Both the position numbers and the translations under genes were made by a program. The notes under the pieces were generated by a model. The model was given only the letters and a program-made list of their open reading frames with translations. It was not told where the DNA came from and searched no databases. DNA of 64,000 nt from Dehalococcoidia bacterium (lineage in GTDB: Bacteria > Chloroflexota > Dehalococcoidia > Bin125): NCBI GenBank assembly GCA_022826965.1, contig JAJDTU010000005.1:248001-312000 (forward strand). The letters are read 5' to 3'. Of this stretch, positions 27,521 to 36,324 are shown in pieces; positions within the stretch are counted from its first letter, which is position 1; every line of letters begins with the position of its first letter.

Positions 27521-28225
27521 ATGCAGAACTGGCGGATCACGCGCGGGCGGGCATTGCTCCTGCTCCTGCTCGGCATTGCCATCGTGGCAGCGCTGATCGG
27601 CGCCTATCTCGCCTACGAACGCTGGTTTCCCTGGGATCAATCCGAGATCGAGGAATGGATCGACGGCTTCGGCGTCTGGGGTCCCGTCGTCTACATCGTG
27701 ATCTTCGCCGCATCGATGCTGTTTGCGCCCTTGCCGACCGCGCCGATGCCGCTGATCGCCGCGGCCGTGTTCGGTCCCGTGCTGGGATTCGTGTACACGA
27801 TCACCGCGACTGCGATCGGTTCGACTGTCTGCTTCTGGATCGCGCGCCGGCTCGGCCGCCCCGCCTTGGGGAGGCTGACATCGCAGCGGGCGCTGGACAA
27901 GATCGACGAACTCGGAGATCGACTCGGCATTCGTCTGCTGATAGTGCTGCGATTGTTTCCAATCGCCGGGGTTGACTACGTCTCGTACGCGGCCGGCCTG
28001 ACGCAGATGCGATTTCCCACATACATCGTGATCTCAGTGCTCGCTTCGTCGCCAATCCTGATTCTCGCCGCCGTGCTCGGCGACGCGGTGCTGGAACGGA
28101 ACCGCGAACTCCTGCTCGGTGCGCTGCTGGCGATCATCGCGTTCTTTGCTCTGCCGGTGCTCTGGGTCTGGTGGCGGCAACGCCGACAGCGACGCCAGAC
28201 CCAGCCCGCGTCCACGGAGCGTTAG
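27521..28225 (+). CDS. VTT-domain (TVP38/DedA-like) membrane protein
   Basis: 234 residues with about five to six hydrophobic segments: one at residues 11-31, then 'WGPVVYIVIFAASMLFAPLP', 'IAAAVFGPVLGFVYTITAT' and others. The conserved VTT segment is 'LGIRLLIVLRLFPIAGVDYV'. This family of inner-membrane proteins is linked to lipid scrambling and undecaprenyl-phosphate recycling. A basic tail 'RQRRQRRQ' ends the protein. The flavin reductase gene follows 9 bp downstream, but no functional link is obvious. Confidence 0.85.
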   Translation: MQNWRITRGRALLLLLLGIAIVAALIGAYLAYERWFPWDQSEIEEWIDGFGVWGPVVYIVIFAASMLFAPLPTAPMPLIAAAVFGPVLGFVYTITATAIGSTVCFWIARRLGRPALGRLTSQRALDKIDELGDRLGIRLLIVLRLFPIAGVDYVSYAAGLTQMRFPTYIVISVLASSPILILAAVLGDAVLERNRELLLGALLAIIAFFALPVLWVWWRQRRQRRQTQPASTER

Positions 28226-28234
28226 CCTCCCCTC

Positions 28235-28819
28235 ATGCCGCTCTCCGACGCTCCGTCGCTACTGACTTTGATGTGGTCGCCGTTGACCCTCGTTACCTCA
28301 GCTCACGACGGCGCTCGCGGCGGACAGATCGCGGTCGGAGCGTTCGCAGCCTCAATCGTGCCGGCGCAGCCTCGGGTTCTCGTCCAGGTCCAGAAGCGTA
28401 ACCACACCAACTCGCTGATCGAAGCTTCGGGACACCTGGCGGTCCACGTCATGGCCCGCGAGCAGTGGCAGTGGGTGCGGCACTGGGGCTTCCGCTCCCA
28501 GACGGAAGTCGACAAGTTCGACGGGCTCGAATGGTTCGAGCATGGGAGCGGCTTGCCGATACTCGACGGCGTGCTCGGCTGGATGACGTGTGAGGTGGTC
28601 AACTACATGGACGGCGGCGACATGGCGATCTGGCTCGCCGACGTCACCGATGCCGCACGCAACACCCGAGCGCAGCCGATCCGCTGGCACGAGGTTCAAC
28701 AGGTCCTTCCGCCCGACTGGGCCGAGGAGTACGGTCGCAAACTGAGCCACGACGTGCCGGACTCCGGCCGTCGGATGGCGGAACTGTCGGACAACCCGCC
28801 CTGGCGTCCGGGCGGTTAG
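28235..28819 (+). CDS. flavin reductase / FMN-binding split-barrel protein
   Basis: 194 residues. Split-barrel opening 'LMWSPLTLVTSAHDGARGGQ', then 'VGAFAASIVPAQPRVLVQVQKRN', 'TNSLIEASGHLAVHVM' and 'WMTCEVVNYMDGGDMAIWLADV', the usual flavin reductase pattern. Such proteins supply FMNH2 to two-component monooxygenases or are themselves FMN-dependent oxidoreductases. A possible client in this window is the luciferase-like enzyme at 611-1618, though it is distant. Its stop overlaps the convergent enoyl-CoA hydratase gene by 4 bp (TTAG). Confidence 0.87.
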   Translation: MPLSDAPSLLTLMWSPLTLVTSAHDGARGGQIAVGAFAASIVPAQPRVLVQVQKRNHTNSLIEASGHLAVHVMAREQWQWVRHWGFRSQTEVDKFDGLEWFEHGSGLPILDGVLGWMTCEVVNYMDGGDMAIWLADVTDAARNTRAQPIRWHEVQQVLPPDWAEEYGRKLSHDVPDSGRRMAELSDNPPWRPGG

Positions 28820-29616
28820 CGGCCCTTCCAGTTCGGCGTGCGCTTCTCCGCGAAGGCCCGCGGACCCTCGATCAGGTCTTCGGACTGACCCATAATCCGC
28901 TGCTGGTGGAAGCTGTGCGTCAGGGCGGCGGGTAGCGGAAGGTCGAGGCCCTTGTAGGCGGCTTCCTTGGAGGCGCGCACCGAGATCGGAGCGCAGAGCA
29001 GGATCTCGCTGGCCCAACGTTTGGCCGTGTCCATCAGCTCCGCCGCCGGCACGACCTCATTGACCAGACCCCACTGGTGCGCGACGGGAGCCGGGATGTG
29101 GTTACCGGTCAGCATGTAGCCCATCGCGATCTTGAGCGGGATGTGACGCGGCAGACGGTGGACGCCGCCCGCGCCGGCCATCAGACCCACACGCGGCTCG
29201 GGCAGGCCAAGGCGCGCGTGATCGGCCGCGATGATGATGTCGCAGGCCATCGCCATCTCGCAGCCGCCGCCCAGCGCGAAGCCGTTGACCGCAGCAATCA
29301 TCGGCTTCGGGCACTCCCAATCGGCAGTAATCCCACCGAATCCGCCGCGCACCGGAGCGAAGCTCGGCCGCTCGTTGGCCGGCATCCGCGACATCTCGGC
29401 CGTGTACTTCAGGTCGTTGCCTGCGGAGAACGCCCGCTCGCCGGCGCCGGTCAGGATTCCAACCCAGGCAGAATCGTCCGCGGCGAAGGTGTTCCAGGCG
29501 TCCGACAGTTCTTCCGTCGTCGGCGGGTGAATCGAGTTCATCCGCTCGGGCCGGTTGATGGTGATCGTGACAATGTTGCCGTCTTGCTCGTACTTGATGA
29601 ACTCGTAATCCGCCAT
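28816..29616 (-). CDS. enoyl-CoA hydratase/isomerase family protein
   Basis: 266-residue crotonase. Oxyanion-hole segments 'RAFSAGNDLKY' and 'VNGFALGGGCEMAMACD' are intact. The two catalytic glutamates (144 and 164 in rat mitochondrial hydratase) are present as Glu120 in 'GGGCE' and Glu140 in 'GLPEPRVGLM', 20 residues apart. Hydration of a trans-2-enoyl-CoA is therefore credible. The ATG at 29616 gives 'MADYEFIKYEQDGNIVTITI'; upstream in-frame sequence is non-family. Downstream of the SDR gene (56 bp), which could oxidise the resulting 3-hydroxyacyl-CoA. Confidence 0.92.
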   Translation of the reverse strand: MADYEFIKYEQDGNIVTITINRPERMNSIHPPTTEELSDAWNTFAADDSAWVGILTGAGERAFSAGNDLKYTAEMSRMPANERPSFAPVRGGFGGITADWECPKPMIAAVNGFALGGGCEMAMACDIIIAADHARLGLPEPRVGLMAGAGGVHRLPRHIPLKIAMGYMLTGNHIPAPVAHQWGLVNEVVPAAELMDTAKRWASEILLCAPISVRASKEAAYKGLDLPLPAALTHSFHQQRIMGQSEDLIEGPRAFAEKRTPNWKGR

Positions 29617-29672
29617 GTATCTACCCCTGTCAGGTGTCTCGTGCTGTTTGGTTCGCGCTCGGTCTCGAGGGA

Positions 29673-30494
29673 CTAGTGCTGGACGCAGGTCCCGCCGTCG
29701 ACATTGTACGACTGGCCCGTAATCCACTCGCCCTGGGCCGAGCAAAGGAATGCCGTGATGTAGGCGATGTCCTCACCCTCGCCGGCGCGGCCCATCGGAA
29801 TGCGCGTGTCGATTGCGCGCTGCCAGAACTCGCCCCTGCCCATGTCGTCCATGCGCGACGTGTCGATAATGCCGGGACAGATCGCGTTCACCCGAACGCC
29901 GTGCTGCCCGATTTCCTGCGCCATCGAAGCCGTCAATGCCTGCAATCCGGCCTTTGACGACGCATAGGCCGCCGTGTTCGGCCCCAACATCTTGCCGGCG
30001 ATCGATGAGATGTTGATGATCACGCCGCCCTCGCCCTGCTCAATCAGCTTCCGTCCAAAGACCTGGCTCATGTAGAACGCGCCGTTGAGATTCACATCCA
30101 GCACGACTCGCCAGAGCTCCGGGTCGAGCTCGACCACGGGCACTCGGTCCGAGCCACGCGCGGCTCCGGCGTTGTTGATCACGAAGTCGACCCGACCAAA
30201 CTCGGACAACGTGGTGTCGAGCAGGTCCTCGACCGCTTCATAGTCGGCCACGTCGGACACGAGCGGCAGCGCACGCCGACCCTCCGCGCGTACCTCGTCG
30301 GCGACCGAATCGATGTCGCGCCAACCGGCGGCCTTCTCGTCGTCGGGATAGTTCTCGGGAGCGCGTCCCGTGCCAGTCAGCACGATGTCGCAGCCCTGCC
30401 TCGCCAGTTCGACCGCGATCGGCCGACCAATGCTGCGCATTCGACCGGCACCTGTGACCACTGCGACCTTGTCGCCAAGCCCACTCAACTGCAT
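29673..30494 (-). CDS. SDR-family oxidoreductase
   Basis: 273 residues, classical short-chain dehydrogenase. Nucleotide site 'VAVVTGAGRMRSIGRPIAVE', 'NNAGAARG', catalytic serine in 'IINISSIAGKM', Tyr177 and Lys181 in 'YASSK', and 'VNAICPGIIDTSR'. An enlarged loop with 'ENYPDDEKAAGW' follows strand 2. The C-terminal 'GEWITGQSYNVDGG' is typical. Probable substrate is a 3-hydroxyacyl-CoA or alcohol, inferred from the adjacent enoyl-CoA hydratase gene on the same strand. Confidence 0.92.
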   Translation of the reverse strand: MQLSGLGDKVAVVTGAGRMRSIGRPIAVELARQGCDIVLTGTGRAPENYPDDEKAAGWRDIDSVADEVRAEGRRALPLVSDVADYEAVEDLLDTTLSEFGRVDFVINNAGAARGSDRVPVVELDPELWRVVLDVNLNGAFYMSQVFGRKLIEQGEGGVIINISSIAGKMLGPNTAAYASSKAGLQALTASMAQEIGQHGVRVNAICPGIIDTSRMDDMGRGEFWQRAIDTRIPMGRAGEGEDIAYITAFLCSAQGEWITGQSYNVDGGTCVQH

Positions 30495-30545
30495 GTCCCC
30501 TCCTGTTCATCGCTGGGGAAGTACGCCGCGAGGCTAGCAGCCGAC

Positions 30546-30938
30546 CTACTCGCCTTCCTCAGCTTCTTCGTCGTCATCGACGTCCTCGCCCTCGTCGTCG
30601 TAGAACTCCTCCGACTCCGCCAGGCCCTTGATGTCGCCCAGGATCTGCTCCAGGTGCGGTCCATTGCCGGCCCCGCGAATCAGTGTGAGCAACGGCCCCA
30701 GGAAGCCCGAGAACTCAAGCACCGCCTCGGCGCGGGTCATGCCGCCACCCGCCCGCTCGACGCGGAAGTCGTACCGAGCTCCGGTCAGCGCAGTGGACCA
30801 GTTGATCGCGTAGTGGCGGGGCGACTCGCTCACGATTTCCTTGAAGGCGCCCTCGGTGACGGCCATCTCCAGCACCTCAAGGGTCGCCTCGAACACGTCA
30901 ATCGGCTCAGCCTCAATCTCGATCTCGCGAAGCGTCAT
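30546..30938 (-). CDS. SRPBCC-like small protein with acidic tail
   Basis: 130 residues. The body resembles a START/polyketide-cyclase (SRPBCC) fold: 'REIEIEAEPIDVFEATLEVLE', 'YAINWSTALTGARYDFRVER', 'AEAVLEFSGFLGPLLTLIRG' and a C-terminal helix. The last 17 residues are almost all Asp and Glu ('DDEGEDVDDDEEAEEGE'). The assignment is by pattern and modest in certainty. The ATG overlaps the stop of the GIY-YIG nuclease gene (ATGA), so the two are translationally coupled. The SDR gene lies 51 bp downstream on the same strand. Confidence 0.6.
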   Translation of the reverse strand: MTLREIEIEAEPIDVFEATLEVLEMAVTEGAFKEIVSESPRHYAINWSTALTGARYDFRVERAGGGMTRAEAVLEFSGFLGPLLTLIRGAGNGPHLEQILGDIKGLAESEEFYDDEGEDVDDDEEAEEGE

Positions 30939-31816
30939 TCGTCATCTCCCCGCACCACGTTTCCAAGGGTTCGACCACCTTTGGTTCTCCACTCGCGATA
31001 AGGAGTGGGTGCGCGTCCTGTTAGCGCACTGGTCGCCGCGGACGGTGAGGAGAAAACGTAGTCACGGCTGAGGACATAGTGGTCTCCATCTTCTACGAAG
31101 ACCTTGTCATCGATCAACGATTGTCGCCTGGAGACTTCGCCACGGAACTCTGGCCGAGTCAGAAATGAGGGCACTGGTGCCCCATGGGCCTGCGAGCCCT
31201 TTAATACCAGGAACTCATTGGGACTCTCGACCCGAGCACTCGCCTTGATGCCTCTGACGTCAAGGAAGAAGAGTTGCTCTCGTAAATCATCGTTCGGTGG
31301 AACGTGAGTTGATGAGCGAAATGCTGTCACGCCGAGCACCTCGATGCAGGTCAGCATGTCGTCAATAGAGCGATACGCGTCCGCGCTGTCAGCCTCTGAG
31401 ATGATTGGAGCGGAAGGTTCGTTTCGATTCTGAAGGTCGGACCTGCCACGGTCTTTGGCGATCCGAATCAGTTCAGATTCGATGAACCTCGCGTGTGCGC
31501 TGTTGAATGCGCTGTCTTTGCTAGTAAAGGCTGCCGCGTCCGTCCAGAAGTCCTTCTCGGAGTCATGACTCAGTAATCGAGTCATGACATTGTCTGATTG
31601 TCCGATGTAGATCCTCGGAGAGTCCACGCGATCATCGCGCTCCCACAGCACGTAGACGCCCGTGCGGTTCACTTCGTCGCGGGCCCGCGCTTTAGCCAGC
31701 AAGAGACGAGGAAATGCGATGCCTTGACCAGTCCATCCCGGACGCTCGACCACTTTGAGACCCTGTGGGTCGCCATCCGGAAAGTAAAGACGCACCGAGA
31801 AACCGCGTGCCGGCAT
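30935..31816 (-). CDS. GIY-YIG nuclease-domain protein with DUF4357
   Basis: 293 residues. GIY-YIG core: 'TGVYVLWE' (53-55), 'RIYIGQS' (70-72), Arg80 in 'NVMTRLLSH' and metal Glu113 in 'FIESELIR', so catalytic residues are in place. The C-terminus 'VFSSPSAATSALTGRA' then 'EWRTKGGRTL' fits DUF4357. Such proteins are common in accessory or defence neighbourhoods, function unknown. The ATG at 31816 has GGGGG about 8 nt upstream; a longer frame extends to 31870. Base composition is lower in GC than neighbours (47% and 55% in two 60-base stretches counted, against 70% in a CaiB stretch), suggesting recent acquisition. Confidence 0.83.
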   Translation of the reverse strand: MPARGFSVRLYFPDGDPQGLKVVERPGWTGQGIAFPRLLLAKARARDEVNRTGVYVLWERDDRVDSPRIYIGQSDNVMTRLLSHDSEKDFWTDAAAFTSKDSAFNSAHARFIESELIRIAKDRGRSDLQNRNEPSAPIISEADSADAYRSIDDMLTCIEVLGVTAFRSSTHVPPNDDLREQLFFLDVRGIKASARVESPNEFLVLKGSQAHGAPVPSFLTRPEFRGEVSRRQSLIDDKVFVEDGDHYVLSRDYVFSSPSAATSALTGRAPTPYREWRTKGGRTLGNVVRGDDE

Positions 31817-31829
31817 ACCATGACCCCCA

Positions 31830-32858
31830 GTGACACAGCCTAAGGCCCGCACCGCCGATCTCGATTCCATCCCTGACCTCGACCGCGACGAGCAGGCCGC
31901 CTACGACGCCGGGCTCGAAGTCCGCGCCGACGCCGAATCCCGTTCCCCTGGGTGGATCGAACGAACCGTCAAGGTCGCGCTGAACACGAACCATGGATTC
32001 CCCCGCGGCGAAGCTCGGATTGCCTTGCAACTGGGGCCGCCCGACGAGGTCGTCGCCGCCCTCCTCCCTGCATTGCTCTCCCCGAACAAGCGGATGCGGC
32101 GGCGGTCGATGACGCTGCTGCCGCGGCTCGACCCGGACGAGGTCTGCCGACAGCTCGATCCCGTACTCGAGACCGGGGCTCGCAAGTCGCGGCGAGCGGC
32201 TTGCGTCGCGTTGGCGGCGATCGGTGCGCCCGCCGAACCGTTGCTCAAGCGCCTGCTGGAGGATTCGGACGAAACAATCCGCAATCGCGCAGCACGCGCT
32301 CTTGAGGCAATCGCCGCCCGACCGCCGGAAGCAGCGGACCGCACGCGGTCGTCGGTTCGACCGTTCGGATTGCCCTATCGGGATGCGCCGCCTCCTCGAC
32401 CGCGTTCGTTTGCCGTTGCCGCGTTCAACTTCTCCTACGGCGTCAACATGGGCACGCTGATCCGCAGCGCCGAGGCGGCGGGTGCAGAGGCGGTCTGGAT
32501 TATCGGCCGCGATTTCTACTACCGACCTTCAACCAAGGGCACCGACTGGTGGCTGCCGGTCGTCACCATTGAGTCGCCCGCCGCGTGCCTCGAACTTGCC
32601 CACGACCAGGGCTTCGAAATCGTCGCGCTGCAGCAAGGAGAAGAGGCCCGACCGATCTGGGAGGCGGAGTGGCCTGAGCGTCCGCTGATCGTCGCGGGCA
32701 ACGAGGGTGACGGCTTGCCGCAGCACTTCATTGACGCCGCCGCGCTGCAGCTCGAGCTGCCCGTAGTCGGCAACATCGACAGCCTCAATGTCGCGGTCGC
32801 CACGTCGGTCGCCATGTTCGCGTTTCGCGGCTGGCAAGCCCGGCAATCGAAGCGATGA
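31830..32858 (+). CDS. HEAT-repeat / SPOUT RNA methyltransferase fusion
   Basis: 342 residues. The N-terminal half has helical repeats of HEAT type at about residues 65-165 ('PDEVVAALLPALLSPNKRMR', 'RRAACVALAAIGAPAEPLLK', 'DETIRNRAARALEAIAA'). The C-terminal half is a TrmH-like SPOUT domain ('GVNMGTLIRSAEAAGAEAVW', 'PLIVAGNEGDGLP', 'VVGNIDSLNVAVATSVAMF'). HEAT repeats may bind RNA or protein; RNA 2'-O-methylation is the expected reaction. The start is GTG at 31830, the first possible in frame and only 13 bp from the divergent GIY-YIG start. No good ribosome-binding site is seen. Overlaps the next gene by ATGA. Confidence 0.85.
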   Translation: MTQPKARTADLDSIPDLDRDEQAAYDAGLEVRADAESRSPGWIERTVKVALNTNHGFPRGEARIALQLGPPDEVVAALLPALLSPNKRMRRRSMTLLPRLDPDEVCRQLDPVLETGARKSRRAACVALAAIGAPAEPLLKRLLEDSDETIRNRAARALEAIAARPPEAADRTRSSVRPFGLPYRDAPPPRPRSFAVAAFNFSYGVNMGTLIRSAEAAGAEAVWIIGRDFYYRPSTKGTDWWLPVVTIESPAACLELAHDQGFEIVALQQGEEARPIWEAEWPERPLIVAGNEGDGLPQHFIDAAALQLELPVVGNIDSLNVAVATSVAMFAFRGWQARQSKR

Positions 32859-33784
32859 CTCGGAGCTTCACCCGCCGCACCTTGATGCGCGCCGCCGCGG
32901 TCGGCGCTATTGCGGCCGCCGTTGGACCGCGACTCCCGACGCTCGCGCGAGAAACTGACGAAATCTCGCTTCTCGCCGGATGGAACGGACACACCTGGTG
33001 CGGACCAGACACGCCGATCCACGAAGCGGTCGGGTCGCTCCCGCTGAAGATTGCCCATGGATGGGACATCGAGAGTCAGAGATGGACATCGTACGCCCCA
33101 AACACGCCGGTCAATAGCATCGGCGTTCTCCGACACGGTCAGCCGCTGCTGATGCTGCTGAACTCCGACGCCGTCTGGCGGCAGCCGGGATTCCGCGGAC
33201 CGCTTCCGGAGCCGACGGGGTTGCCGGTCGGCTGGTCGTTCGTGGGCTGGTCGGGTCTGCACGAGCCGGTCTGGACGGCGCTCGGGACGGAGCCGTTTGG
33301 TCCCGTCGCGGAGGCGCTTCGCTGGAACTCCGAGTACCAGCAATGGATCTCGTACGCGCCGGGCGAGTCGGCCCAACAACTGTTCGCCGTGCTTCATCCC
33401 GGCGACGCAGTCTGGCTGCGGATGCGGGTCGCCGGCGCTCGCTGGAATCCGGCCGCCGGCATTGTTCCCGCCGACCTCGCCTCTCGGGTCGTCCCCGGCG
33501 AGATCACCTACTATCACCCGTCTCTGGCCGGCGGTCCGATGTTCTGCCCGCCGCACAATCGATATGATCCGTTCGATCCGGCTATCGCTGCAGCGGTCAC
33601 CTGGCCTTGCGGCACGAGGCTGCGGATCTGGCGAGACGAGCGTTACGTGGACGTGATCATCCAGGACACCGGTCTGCTGGGCCACAACCACGTCGACCTC
33701 TCGGAGGCGGCCTTTCAGCGGCTCGCCATCCTTCCTGAAGGGCGTGTAAGCGTTCTGATCGAAGTTCTCGCAGGGCCCGAATGA
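32855..33784 (+). CDS. Tat-exported protein with duplicated repeat and RlpA-like double-psi barrel
   Basis: 309 residues. A twin-arginine signal is visible: 'FTRRTLMRAAAVGAIAAAVG', cleavage likely near residue 30. Two related segments of about 75 residues follow, each with a 'GW' opening and a 'W.SYAP' core ('SQRWTSYAPNTP' and 'YQQWISYAPGES'). The C-terminal ~85 residues ('GEITYYHP', 'WPCGTRLRIWRDERYVDVII', 'GLLGHNHVDLSEAAFQRLA') match an RlpA-like double-psi beta-barrel, including the D-rich and H-V-D-L-S motifs. Probably an extracytoplasmic cell-surface or wall-binding protein. Overlaps the SPOUT gene by ATGA. Confidence 0.8.
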   Translation: MTRSFTRRTLMRAAAVGAIAAAVGPRLPTLARETDEISLLAGWNGHTWCGPDTPIHEAVGSLPLKIAHGWDIESQRWTSYAPNTPVNSIGVLRHGQPLLMLLNSDAVWRQPGFRGPLPEPTGLPVGWSFVGWSGLHEPVWTALGTEPFGPVAEALRWNSEYQQWISYAPGESAQQLFAVLHPGDAVWLRMRVAGARWNPAAGIVPADLASRVVPGEITYYHPSLAGGPMFCPPHNRYDPFDPAIAAAVTWPCGTRLRIWRDERYVDVIIQDTGLLGHNHVDLSEAAFQRLAILPEGRVSVLIEVLAGPE

Positions 33785-33838
33785 CGGAAGGCTGAACGCA
33801 CCGTTGCGGCATACCTTGGGCGCGATGGAGACCGAAGC

Positions 33839-34945
33839 ATGAGCCGACGCAACGCCCTCAGAATCTCAATCCTCTCTGCCGCGGTCGCCGCCGCCATCAC
33901 AGCGGCGGCATTCCTCGCGCTCGACGAGCGGCCACCCGCCGAGCCGGCGCACAGCGCCGCGGAGATTCGCACCGAGCCGGCGCTGCTCTCTGGCGAGCTG
34001 CGCTCGCCCGAGGCGCCCACCTTCCCGCCGACGTTCGCTGAACCCACCACGACCACGGTGGACTGGTCTGCGATCTACGCGAGGGCCGTCCCCTCCCTGG
34101 TATCGGTCACGACTGACAGGGGCACAGGATCCGGCTTCTTCGTCAGCAAGAACGGTCACATAATCACCAACCTCCACGTCGTCGCAGACGGCGAGGACGT
34201 GCGTGTTCGCACGCAACAGGGCCGAGACCTCGACGCAGACCTCGTCGCCAGGGATGTCGGCAACGATCTCGCCTTGCTCAAGGTCGACCCTGCCGGAGTC
34301 GCAATCACGGTGCCGCTCTTTGCCAGCATCGATGAGGTTCGTGTTGGGGACCCGGTGGGCGCTCTGGGCGCGCCGTTCGGGCTGCCCAACACTTTGACCG
34401 TGGGTATTGTCTCCGCCCTGGACCGCCAGCGCGGCAACCGACCGCAGGCCTGGGAACCCCTGCGCGCCATGATCCAGACCGATGCGGCGCTCAATCCCGG
34501 CAACTCCGGCGGGATGCTCGTTGACGGTCGCGGCCGCGTGGTCGGCATCCCGACGCAAATCGAGAGCAGCGTCCGCTCCTCTTCCGGCATCGGATTCGCG
34601 GTCAGCGTCGAGACGCTGTTGCGATCGCTTCCCACAATGCTCGACGGCCGAGACGTCGAGCGCACGTTCCTCGGCGTTTCGCTCGATCAGTCGACGGGTC
34701 GGATCCGGATCGAGGACGTCTACTGCGACTCGGCCGCCGACCTGGCCGACGTACGCGCTGGCGACCAGCTGATTGCGATCAACGACCAATCGGCAGACAC
34801 CGTCGACGAGCTGGTCGACGTCCTCGCTTCAATCACGCCCGGCGACGAGATCACGATCACGGTTCAGCGGAGCTGGCGTCGCCTCGAACTCGAGACGACT
34901 GCCAAAGCCTGGCCGACGACCCCGCTGAGCGCCGGCTGCGGCTAG
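33839..34945 (+). CDS. HtrA/DegP-like serine protease with PDZ domain
   Basis: 368 residues. N-terminal signal anchor at about residues 8-27, Pro-rich linker, trypsin-like domain with triad His113 ('ITNLHVVADG'), Asp143 ('GNDLALLKVD') and Ser223 ('LNPGNSGGMLVDG'), and a single PDZ domain ('YCDSAADLADVRAGDQLIAI'). An extracytoplasmic quality-control or regulatory protease, membrane-tethered. The 3' end overlaps the convergent MFS gene by 4 bp (CTAG). It follows the Tat-exported protein by 54 bp, so both may serve the cell envelope. Confidence 0.93.
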   Translation: MSRRNALRISILSAAVAAAITAAAFLALDERPPAEPAHSAAEIRTEPALLSGELRSPEAPTFPPTFAEPTTTTVDWSAIYARAVPSLVSVTTDRGTGSGFFVSKNGHIITNLHVVADGEDVRVRTQQGRDLDADLVARDVGNDLALLKVDPAGVAITVPLFASIDEVRVGDPVGALGAPFGLPNTLTVGIVSALDRQRGNRPQAWEPLRAMIQTDAALNPGNSGGMLVDGRGRVVGIPTQIESSVRSSSGIGFAVSVETLLRSLPTMLDGRDVERTFLGVSLDQSTGRIRIEDVYCDSAADLADVRAGDQLIAINDQSADTVDELVDVLASITPGDEITITVQRSWRRLELETTAKAWPTTPLSAGCG

Positions 34946-36324
34946 CGGTCGTCCTGCGACACTCGCAGCCAATCCTCTCTCGAGACATCGGCGTACATCT
35001 GCCGCCTCCACAGCCACCAGCGCACCCGCGGCGTCGAGAGCGCCAGCAGCGCGCAGCCGAGCAGGCAGGCGCCCATTATCAGCAGTCCCCAGCGCGCTCC
35101 GATCGAATCGGCCAGGGTTCCGGCCAGTAGCGCGCCGATCAGGATTGTGCCCAGCACGAGGTTCATCAGGGTCAACGCCTGGCCGCGCATGTGCTGAGGT
35201 GCGTGGGCCAGCAGCGCCAGATTGGCCACCGACACCATGTTGTTGACGCAGGCGCTGCCGAAGAACACACAAAACGCCACCACCGCCAGGTGCGGAGCCT
35301 GCGACAACACGGTCAGCGCGATACCGCCGATCACAATGATGCCCAGCATCATGGCGTTCGGCGATCGGATCTCCCGCATCGATGCGATTACGACCGATCC
35401 GAGGGTTGCTCCGACGCCGCCCACTGCGACGAGATAGCCAACCCACGATCGGTGCTGGTCCAGCTCCTCGATCACGATCAGCGGGACCATCACGCCCTCG
35501 TAGGGCTGCAGGAAAATGAACAGCACTGCCGAGATACCGATCACGGCAACGGGCCAGCGCGCTTCTATCGCCCACTTGGCCCCGGCCGTGAAAGTTCGCC
35601 ACAGCGAACGTGCGGCGTCCGGATCGGGCTGGTGCGGTTCTTCCCGTGTCCGAATCAGAATCACCATGATCGCCGAGGCCAGGTTCAAGACGGTCATCAG
35701 TCCGAAGATCCAGGTGAAGTCGGCGAACATGAGCAGCAGACCCGCCAGGAGCGCGCCGCCGATCCTCATCGACGTTTGACCGGTCTGAGAGAGAGCCATC
35801 GCCGACCGCAGGTGCAGCTGCTCGACCATGTGGGGGAGCATCGCCCGACGCGTCGGGTGGAAGAATCCCGTGCTGGAGCCCGACACGACGGCGAGGACGA
35901 TGACCTGCCAGCCTTCCGCCAGATCCAGCAACAACAGGAGGAACAACAGACCCGAGGACACGATGTTGGCCGTGAGCGCACCGACGAGGACACGGCGATG
36001 CGGGAAGCGATCGATGATGATCCCGGCGATCGGAGCCAACACGAGCGTGGGCGCCATGTACGCAGCCAACACCACACCCAGCAGGAAGGCGGAGCCGGTC
36101 AACTCAACGATTAGTACCGGTCGCGCGACGGTCTCCAACCAGAGCGCGGCGGAGCGAACGAACACCATCAGCCACAGCACGCGGAAGTCGCGATAGCCGA
36201 ACGGCGCAAACGTCTCGCCGTGGACCAACCCGAACAACCGCCTCCCGGAAGGGGCAGTCGATTGGCCGTCGGAATCAGAACTCACAAAGCTGCTCGGCTG
36301 CCGGCAGGCAAAAGAGCCCGCCAA
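34942..36324 (-). CDS. MFS transporter (MFS_3/EntS-like), paralogue 1
   Basis: Up to 460 residues, about 12 helices. Opening 'FAPFGYRDFRVLWLMVFVRS', then 'AGIIIDRFPHRRVLVGALTA' (A-motif variant), 'FHPTRRAMLPHMV' and 'SMRIGGALLAGLLLMFADF'. These match the enterobactin-exporter-like MFS_3 group. The start is uncertain: the longest frame begins at TTG 36324, and other TTG codons lie closer to the conserved region. The neighbour at 36418 is a close paralogue on the same strand, so a tandem duplication is likely. Exported substrate unknown. Confidence 0.85.
   Translation of the reverse strand: MAGSFACRQPSSFVSSDSDGQSTAPSGRRLFGLVHGETFAPFGYRDFRVLWLMVFVRSAALWLETVARPVLIVELTGSAFLLGVVLAAYMAPTLVLAPIAGIIIDRFPHRRVLVGALTANIVSSGLLFLLLLLDLAEGWQVIVLAVVSGSSTGFFHPTRRAMLPHMVEQLHLRSAMALSQTGQTSMRIGGALLAGLLLMFADFTWIFGLMTVLNLASAIMVILIRTREEPHQPDPDAARSLWRTFTAGAKWAIEARWPVAVIGISAVLFIFLQPYEGVMVPLIVIEELDQHRSWVGYLVAVGGVGATLGSVVIASMREIRSPNAMMLGIIVIGGIALTVLSQAPHLAVVAFCVFFGSACVNNMVSVANLALLAHAPQHMRGQALTLMNLVLGTILIGALLAGTLADSIGARWGLLIMGACLLGCALLALSTPRVRWWLWRRQMYADVSREDWLRVSQDDR

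Follow-up and report, generated by a model that had tools for sequence, protein, structure and literature searches.

When the stop codon of a nuclease gene lies inside the start codon of the next gene, do the two genes form a functional pair, or do they merely meet at a common junction? This question is raised by a locus in a genome of a Dehalococcoidia bacterium (3.0 Mb, 14 contigs, 97% complete), located within the stretch of 64,000 nucleotides that was analysed here and is called the window below. The initial annotation described a nuclease gene overlapping an SRPBCC-like gene with an acidic tail and proposed either a small accessory or defence module or a nuclease with its inhibitor. The features of the locus are collected in Table 1; the position between the TrmH-like gene and the SRPBCC gene, occupied here by the nuclease, is referred to as the slot.

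Table 1. Features of the nuclease locus (window coordinates).
Feature	Coordinates	Strand	Basis and remarks
Short-chain dehydrogenase	29673..30494	-	Pfam, synteny; conserved right flank beyond the SRPBCC gene
Core-gene protein of SRPBCC/START fold with acidic C-terminal tail (residues 110-130)	30546..30938	-	130 aa; AlphaFold2 model, conservation
ATGA overlap, 4 bp (nuclease stop within SRPBCC start)	30935..30938	-	Sequence
PDC-S14-type nuclease	30935..31816	-	293 aa; PADLOC, Pfam DUF4357, motif; variable slot occupant
Gap from nuclease ATG to divergent TrmH-like GTG	31817..31829	.	13 bp; left edge of the slot; alike in most alleles, empty and occupied
HEAT-repeat and SpoU/TrmH-type methylase gene	31830..32858	+	Pfam SpoU_methylase, E 1.9e-24; conserved left flank

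The nuclease matched five PDC-S14 profiles of PADLOC, the best of them being PDLC04923 (E 1.5e-81), and the match was near full-length, with residues 4-287 aligned to positions 23-309 of 320 in the profile. It also matched PHROG 12629 (E 3.2e-53), and the slot copies of the relatives G007, G009 and G010 gave PDC-S14 family matches as well. The protein has a GIY-YIG-like N-terminal region (approximately residues 50-130) and a C-terminal DUF4357 domain (residues 231-284). Of the two domains originally named, DUF4357 was clearly recovered by Pfam (E 1.4e-13), while GIY-YIG scored below the Pfam cut-off (17.4 vs. 22.6 bits, a score threshold and not a defining trait), though its motif positions are invariant in all 11 aligned sequences, including that of the window: G53-V54-Y55, Y70-x-G72, R80, E113 and N130. 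These residues, which we take to be the catalytic positions of the GIY-YIG fold, are intact in every full-length slot copy, in agreement with the early remark that the catalytic residues are present. The GIY-YIG cut-off was passed by the slot homologues of G009 (24.2 bits) and of contig C132 of G007 (23.7 bits), and 8 of the 11 aligned sequences matched at E 0.01 or better. The G010 slot copy scored 32.3 bits for DUF4357, short of the required 38.4, and gave no Pfam GIY-YIG match. A Pfam search of the window nuclease for RAMA gave no match at E up to 1; two of the 11 aligned sequences matched RAMA at E 0.01 or better over the DUF4357 region, both below the Pfam cut-off. The whole-protein model (pLDDT 84.7, pTM 0.55) found no PDB match in Foldseek at E 0.001 or better, and a nuclease profile likewise retrieved no PDB sequence at E up to 1. 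No RNA family of Rfam was detected in window positions 28000-35000. The lowered GC content noticed at the outset was confirmed: the gene has 56.6% GC and 60.2% GC3, and no other ORF in a mechanically selected set of 57 from the window, each 100 aa or longer, has a GC content as low (set mean 64.9%, sd 2.1, nuclease included).

The neighbouring protein had no family match in Pfam, NCBIfam, PADLOC or PHROG; its SRPBCC-like nature was nevertheless borne out by the predicted structure. The AlphaFold2 model (mean pLDDT 83.8) shows the order E-H-E-E-E-E-H of a helix-grip fold with a long C-terminal helix. Foldseek returned matches with E down to 1.2e-4, APE2225 among them, and VIA-align superimposed the model on BexL (4xrw) with Z 11.7 and an rmsd of 3.0 over 107 aligned residues. 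The predicted fold is thus common to this protein and to the SRPBCC/START superfamily (ARO/CYC BexL, Rv2186c, the CoxG-like APE2225; Z up to 11.7), from which the protein differs by the identity of only 8-15% in the listed VIA-align rows, by the absence of a Pfam family match and by its acidic tail. As the first description had it, the C-terminus is almost purely acidic, with 15 D/E and no K/R in 21 residues.

To see what belongs together at this locus, one has to look at its relatives, namely 15 genomes of the genus in our collection, which provided 14 slot loci. Within the extent of the contigs, the members of the genus share the following gene order: aminotransferase, DedA-like, flavin reductase-like, enoyl-CoA hydratase, dehydrogenase, SRPBCC, slot, TrmH-like (the names aminotransferase, DedA-like and flavin reductase-like, as well as HtrA, were read from the sequences and not from family searches). 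Of the 15 genomes, 14 have the SRPBCC gene, which occurs in 17 of 100 relatives overall; the remaining genus member, G002, lacks an SRPBCC match, gave no more than partial matches to the nuclease family and lies outside the 14 slot loci. A nuclease directly upstream of the SRPBCC gene was found in six of the 14 loci (G000, the genome of the window, G006 with a broken copy, G007, G009, G010 and G014), and the other eight loci have the SRPBCC gene without it. In the empty slots, the distance from the TrmH-like to the SRPBCC gene is 60 bp (G001, G004, G005, G011 and G012), 78 bp (G003 and G013) or 93 bp (G008). In a sister genus, the slot is occupied in G017, with syntenic flanks. Two more distant relatives, G015 and G019, possess the SRPBCC gene and no nuclease at this place. 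No mobile-element genes were seen between the slot flanks in the synteny and junction listings for the genus and G017. Occupancy flips between close relatives, the two members of each of the sister pairs G000/G004, G010/G013 and G009/G011 being in opposite states. On a host tree built from nine flanking proteins, SRPBCC included (16 rows, of which G007b fills only 38% of the columns), the distribution of occupancy (8 of 16 rows) needs six changes compared with a shuffled mean of 5.6, and 398 of 500 shuffles were as low.

Several slots differ from the window in their details. The G006 copy (L037:2944-3558) has lost approximately residues 26-113, which is the catalytic core, in frame, but retains both its C-terminal domain and the ATGA junction; over the C-terminal part it is 52% identical to the window class. 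The G017 slot (L047:5853-7892) holds two tandem, strongly diverged PDC-S14 nucleases. Beyond the slot, the SRPBCC and dehydrogenase genes are separated by 51 bp in the window (30495-30545) but by approximately 300 bp in a number of relatives, L035, L041, L044 and L045 among them.

The same loci explain how the overlap arises. The stop/start overlap, present in the window exactly as first described, was found in all eight SRPBCC-adjacent nucleases, including that on contig C132 of G007, with GTGA as the variant in G017. The SRPBCC gene starts with ATGAC at 14 of 14 genus loci, whether a nuclease is there or not (GTGAC in G017), and the TGA of this start serves as the stop codon of all eight directly adjoining nucleases. 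The ATGA overlap therefore results from the fact that the right edge of the slot is the SRPBCC start itself, which the empty loci have in common with the occupied ones. Judging by the overlap, translational coupling of the two genes is plausible; with the slot ending at its start codon, the SRPBCC gene would probably be co-translated with whichever nuclease is present and yet be no partner of it. On the other side of the slot, as far as the start of the nuclease, the empty alleles resemble the occupied alleles of G000, G006, G009, G014 and C132, and different left edges were seen in contig C111 of G007, in G010 and in G017. The empty alleles thus have similar sequences on both sides and a variable middle. 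They contain GGGAGATGACGAATGAC in a more or less close form, and the window-class nuclease gene has the same piece at its 3′ end. The shared edge pieces might conceivably play a promoter role.

These data bear directly on the proposal that the nuclease is restrained by the acidic SRPBCC protein, acting as a DNA mimic or inhibitor and expressed in a coupled manner. In favour of it speak the stop/start overlap in every SRPBCC-adjacent nuclease, the acidic tail and the same slot in two genera. The overlap, however, loses its weight once the SRPBCC start is seen to supply the TGA even where no nuclease is present, and the SRPBCC gene is a core gene that stands without the nuclease at more than half of the genus loci. 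The tail does not depend on the nuclease either: the C-terminus is acidic in 17 of 17 SRPBCC homologues, most weakly in G019 (14 D/E of 39), and the D/E fraction is 0.61 in seven occupied loci vs. 0.63 in eight empty loci (exact permutation p 0.70, a comparison made without the two outer relatives G015 and G019). Furthermore, a profile search found no SRPBCC relative in any of 14 fetched non-slot stretches around nuclease-family members (each of approximately 5 to 14 kb; L050, L052 and L073 hold partial family members only), whereas the two control stretches that contain one were recovered. The core status of the SRPBCC gene, its unchanged tail and its absence at non-slot loci leave no ground for a nuclease-inhibitor pair, and we consider such a two-gene module very improbable. 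Of what was initially suggested to check, conserved pairing was indeed found in the genus and in one sister genus, where it amounts to no more than a single chromosomal position, and the acidic tail proved to keep its character irrespective of the nuclease. The SRPBCC gene looks like a bystander belonging to the host core. If the predicted fold is a guide, its product most likely has an unrelated job in the binding of small molecules or lipids.

What alternates at the slot is the nuclease, and it does so in strongly diverged classes. The window class comprises the nucleases of G000, G014 (87% identity to the window nuclease) and G007 (78%), with the broken G006 copy placed beside them, and a second class, at 44% identity, comprises those of G009 and of contig C132 of G007. 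More distant are the slot nucleases of G010 (31%) and the tandem pair of G017 (41% and 34%); outside the window class, identities to the window nuclease span 31-47%. In the nuclease tree of 19 sequences, which leaves out fragments and partial copies (G111_2, Desulf_2, G017C5, G002a, G002b and G006) and also G559, the clades (G000, G014, G007) and (G007b, G009) have supports of 100/100 and 100/99, respectively, and both contradict the host clade of G006, G007 and G007b (100/100). The eight slot sequences need two changes in this tree, and a single slot clade was not rejected (p-AU 0.363), so that the slot nucleases may all go back to one ancient arrival. Bin G007 carries different nuclease classes on C111 and C132, with flanks that are 98.2% identical over 57 bp and 94.5% identical over 310 bp. 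Between G014 and G009, five nearby proteins (TrmH, SRPBCC, SDR, ECH and aminotransferase) are 86-99% identical in amino acid sequence and four others 73-90%, compared with only 46% for the nuclease. Taken together, the results clearly show that the slot is empty in many relatives and filled with strongly diverged nuclease classes in others, and that the distribution of these classes disagrees with the host tree.

The substitution rates within the window class speak about the age of these residents. For G000-G014, the nuclease dS was 1.08 vs. 0.52-1.63 in the flanks (dN/dS 0.07); for G000-G007, it was 2.49, which is saturated and above the flank values of 0.81-1.34; and for G014-G007, it was 1.61 vs. 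0.73-3.33, with SRPBCC undefined. Values of dS over about 1, like the undefined ones of distant pairs, support “not recent” only. With dN/dS of 0.06-0.09 in the three comparisons, the window-class nucleases are under purifying selection. They look like old residents rather than recent arrivals, because the divergence within the class is at least as large as that of the flanks and dN/dS is low. Long survival of several classes across species and old exchange via the flanks would both give this pattern.

Two further explanations have to be weighed against this background. Free-standing GIY-YIG homing enzymes exist, and the nuclease could be a selfish gene of this kind that cuts TrmH/SRPBCC junctions lacking a nuclease and is copied into them as they are repaired, in which case its occupancy would reflect self-spread and not defence. 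One precise insertion point in two genera, the different occupancy of sister species and empty alleles that are alike on both sides of a variable middle all agree with homing, as does the existence of such enzymes. A recent spread, however, has left no sign: same-class nucleases have diverged at least as much as their flanks, and the genes adjoining the slot are no more alike than those farther away: for G000-G014, the dS was 1.29 for TrmH, 1.02 for SRPBCC, 1.30 for amtr and 1.00 for g8, and in three same-class pairs the flank dS beside the slot was not reduced (the divergence being old and near saturation). Members of the family in restriction-modification operons and on plasmids also argue against homing, and so does the C-terminal domain of the nuclease, which is reported in restriction enzymes (PMC4619093). 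We therefore consider homing unlikely as an account of the locus; old homing, as opposed to recent, may have taken place.

The nuclease might otherwise be a decaying passenger, a formerly mobile gene of old standing that no longer serves any purpose and is lost time and again, as the many empty alleles and the in-frame loss of the catalytic part in the G006 copy could suggest. Against this stand the low dN/dS in all three window-class comparisons and the motif residues, which remain intact in all full-length slot copies, and we regard mere decay as quite improbable. We find it more probable, if by no means certain, that the nuclease is a stand-alone, single-gene, restriction-like defence enzyme of the PDC-S14 kind, which sits in a fixed slot with the TrmH-like gene on one side and an unrelated SRPBCC gene of the host core on the other. 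Of the small defence module envisaged originally, the defence-type nuclease was retained and the partner was not.

Class-wide, the nuclease family was detected at E 1e-10 or better in 12 of 393 genomes, seven of them of this genus, and in a draw from the phylum at E 1e-20 or better in 4 of 400, three of them of this genus; two named records with close relatives of the nuclease are metagenome-assembled genomes of Dehalococcoidia. Matches were obtained for 51 of 72,556 plasmid records and 2 of 50,697 annotated phage records, and a scan of IMG/VR for viral relatives gave 20 pattern matches and no relative. The contexts were inspected in seven of the 53 matching phage and plasmid records, five of them plasmid. 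The family gene lies between hsdS and hsdR on Rhodococcus pDF01, after a methyltransferase gene and near a type I R subunit gene on Salinibacter pSR56, and beside umuD and a helicase gene in Rhodothermus, with a methyltransferase gene further on; no restriction genes were seen near it on the Desulforapulum and Acuticoccus plasmids. In other genera of Dehalococcoidia, it follows a CoA-transferase gene in G083 and G111 and adjoins the gene of an OLD nuclease as well as a type III restriction-modification pair in G261. For the most part, these contexts fit the published status of the family as a defence candidate defined by embedding in immune systems.

Some other loci deserve mention in their own right. 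In G296 (L071:5585-9174), the nuclease lies between ruvA and uvrB, in a repair-gene neighbourhood. In G002 (L050:135-1028), a DUF4357-type C-terminus is fused to another N-terminal region, in which no GIY-YIG part was seen and which presumably resembles a HARE-HTH domain. In G025 (L088:3577-6400), approximately 2.8 kb of other sequence, the start of which looks to us like a DUF433/toxin-like pair, follows the CoA-transferase gene at the position that the nuclease takes in G083 and G111, possibly as a second variable slot. In three of three genomes of another Dehalococcoidia genus (L051:7150, L072:7721 and L088 near 6418), a CxxC-like motif has an in-frame TGA as its first position, FYHW-[AT]-[TN]-U-[GQN]-TCKTAKAAL; the gene, which we take to be ArsC/Spx-like, would encode a probable selenoprotein.

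Among known systems, PDC-S14 itself comes closest. It was described as a defence candidate by guilt-by-embedding that overlaps GAO_29, a system whose action is apparently restriction-like, and in 14 P. aeruginosa strains it leaned to the susceptible ones (57%) (PMC10855318); PDCs in general are defence candidates on account of their embedding in immune systems (PMC12988326). In the literature examined, no antiphage activity was reported for PDC-S14. With this candidate of PADLOC-DB 2.0 (GIY-YIG and DUF4357), the window nuclease shares the near full-length match, the single-gene layout and the variable presence; it differs in being flanked by housekeeping genes instead of embedded in an immune system, and in the several diverged classes at one position. 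DUF4357 is reported in GmrSD type IV restriction enzymes (PMC4619093), and GIY-YIG-RAMA fusions were suggested to be N6mA-reading type IV restriction enzymes (PMC11037411). The latter resemble the window nuclease in their N-terminal GIY-YIG and in the RAMA profile that overlaps the C-terminal domain in two homologues, but the window nuclease itself lacks a RAMA match. A GIY-YIG nuclease is also shared with an E. coli defence system whose activity was shown (PMC9519451), a likeness by description.

In terms of mechanism, the C-terminal DUF4357/RAMA-like domain might recognise a feature of invading DNA, possibly a base modification, which is guesswork, and the N-terminal GIY-YIG domain would then cut this DNA. 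The SRPBCC gene would probably be co-translated with the resident nuclease. The alleles and the empty state may be exchanged by homologous recombination via the conserved flanks, keeping several versions in circulation. Methyltransferase families are near-universal in the genus (PF01555, N6/N4, in 15 of 15 genomes, PF02384 in 15 of 15 and PF02086 in 14 of 15), so that no avoidance of host methylation by the nuclease is visible; a methylation conflict as a sign of a modification-dependent enzyme was for this reason uninformative.

Chromosomal defence hotspots lie between core genes, and the slot resembles them in its variable defence content at a fixed chromosomal place. It differs from them in holding one gene in the genus (two in tandem in G017), in having no mobile-element genes and in a right edge that is a host start codon. 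As a bolder proposal, the slot may be a trans-species multi-allelic immunity locus, in which old nuclease classes with class-specific targets and the empty state are kept by balancing selection and flank recombination; we put this forward tentatively and with low confidence. A search of the literature on trans-species polymorphism and restriction-modification found only an apparently unrelated fungal study. The family is a known candidate family, and the nuclease is a new member of it. More than ordinary are the slot without mobile-element genes, the flips between sister species, the old classes that cross species and the fusion to a host start codon.

As the locus shows, two genes that lie close together and look translationally coupled need not form a functional module; their arrangement can arise by accident where an insertion point is reusable. 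Moreover, near relatives that carry either the empty state or one of several nuclease classes in this slot constitute a compact natural series for functional tests of an uncharacterised candidate defence family, and the same series is useful for studying the turnover of defence genes in uncultured Dehalococcoidia.
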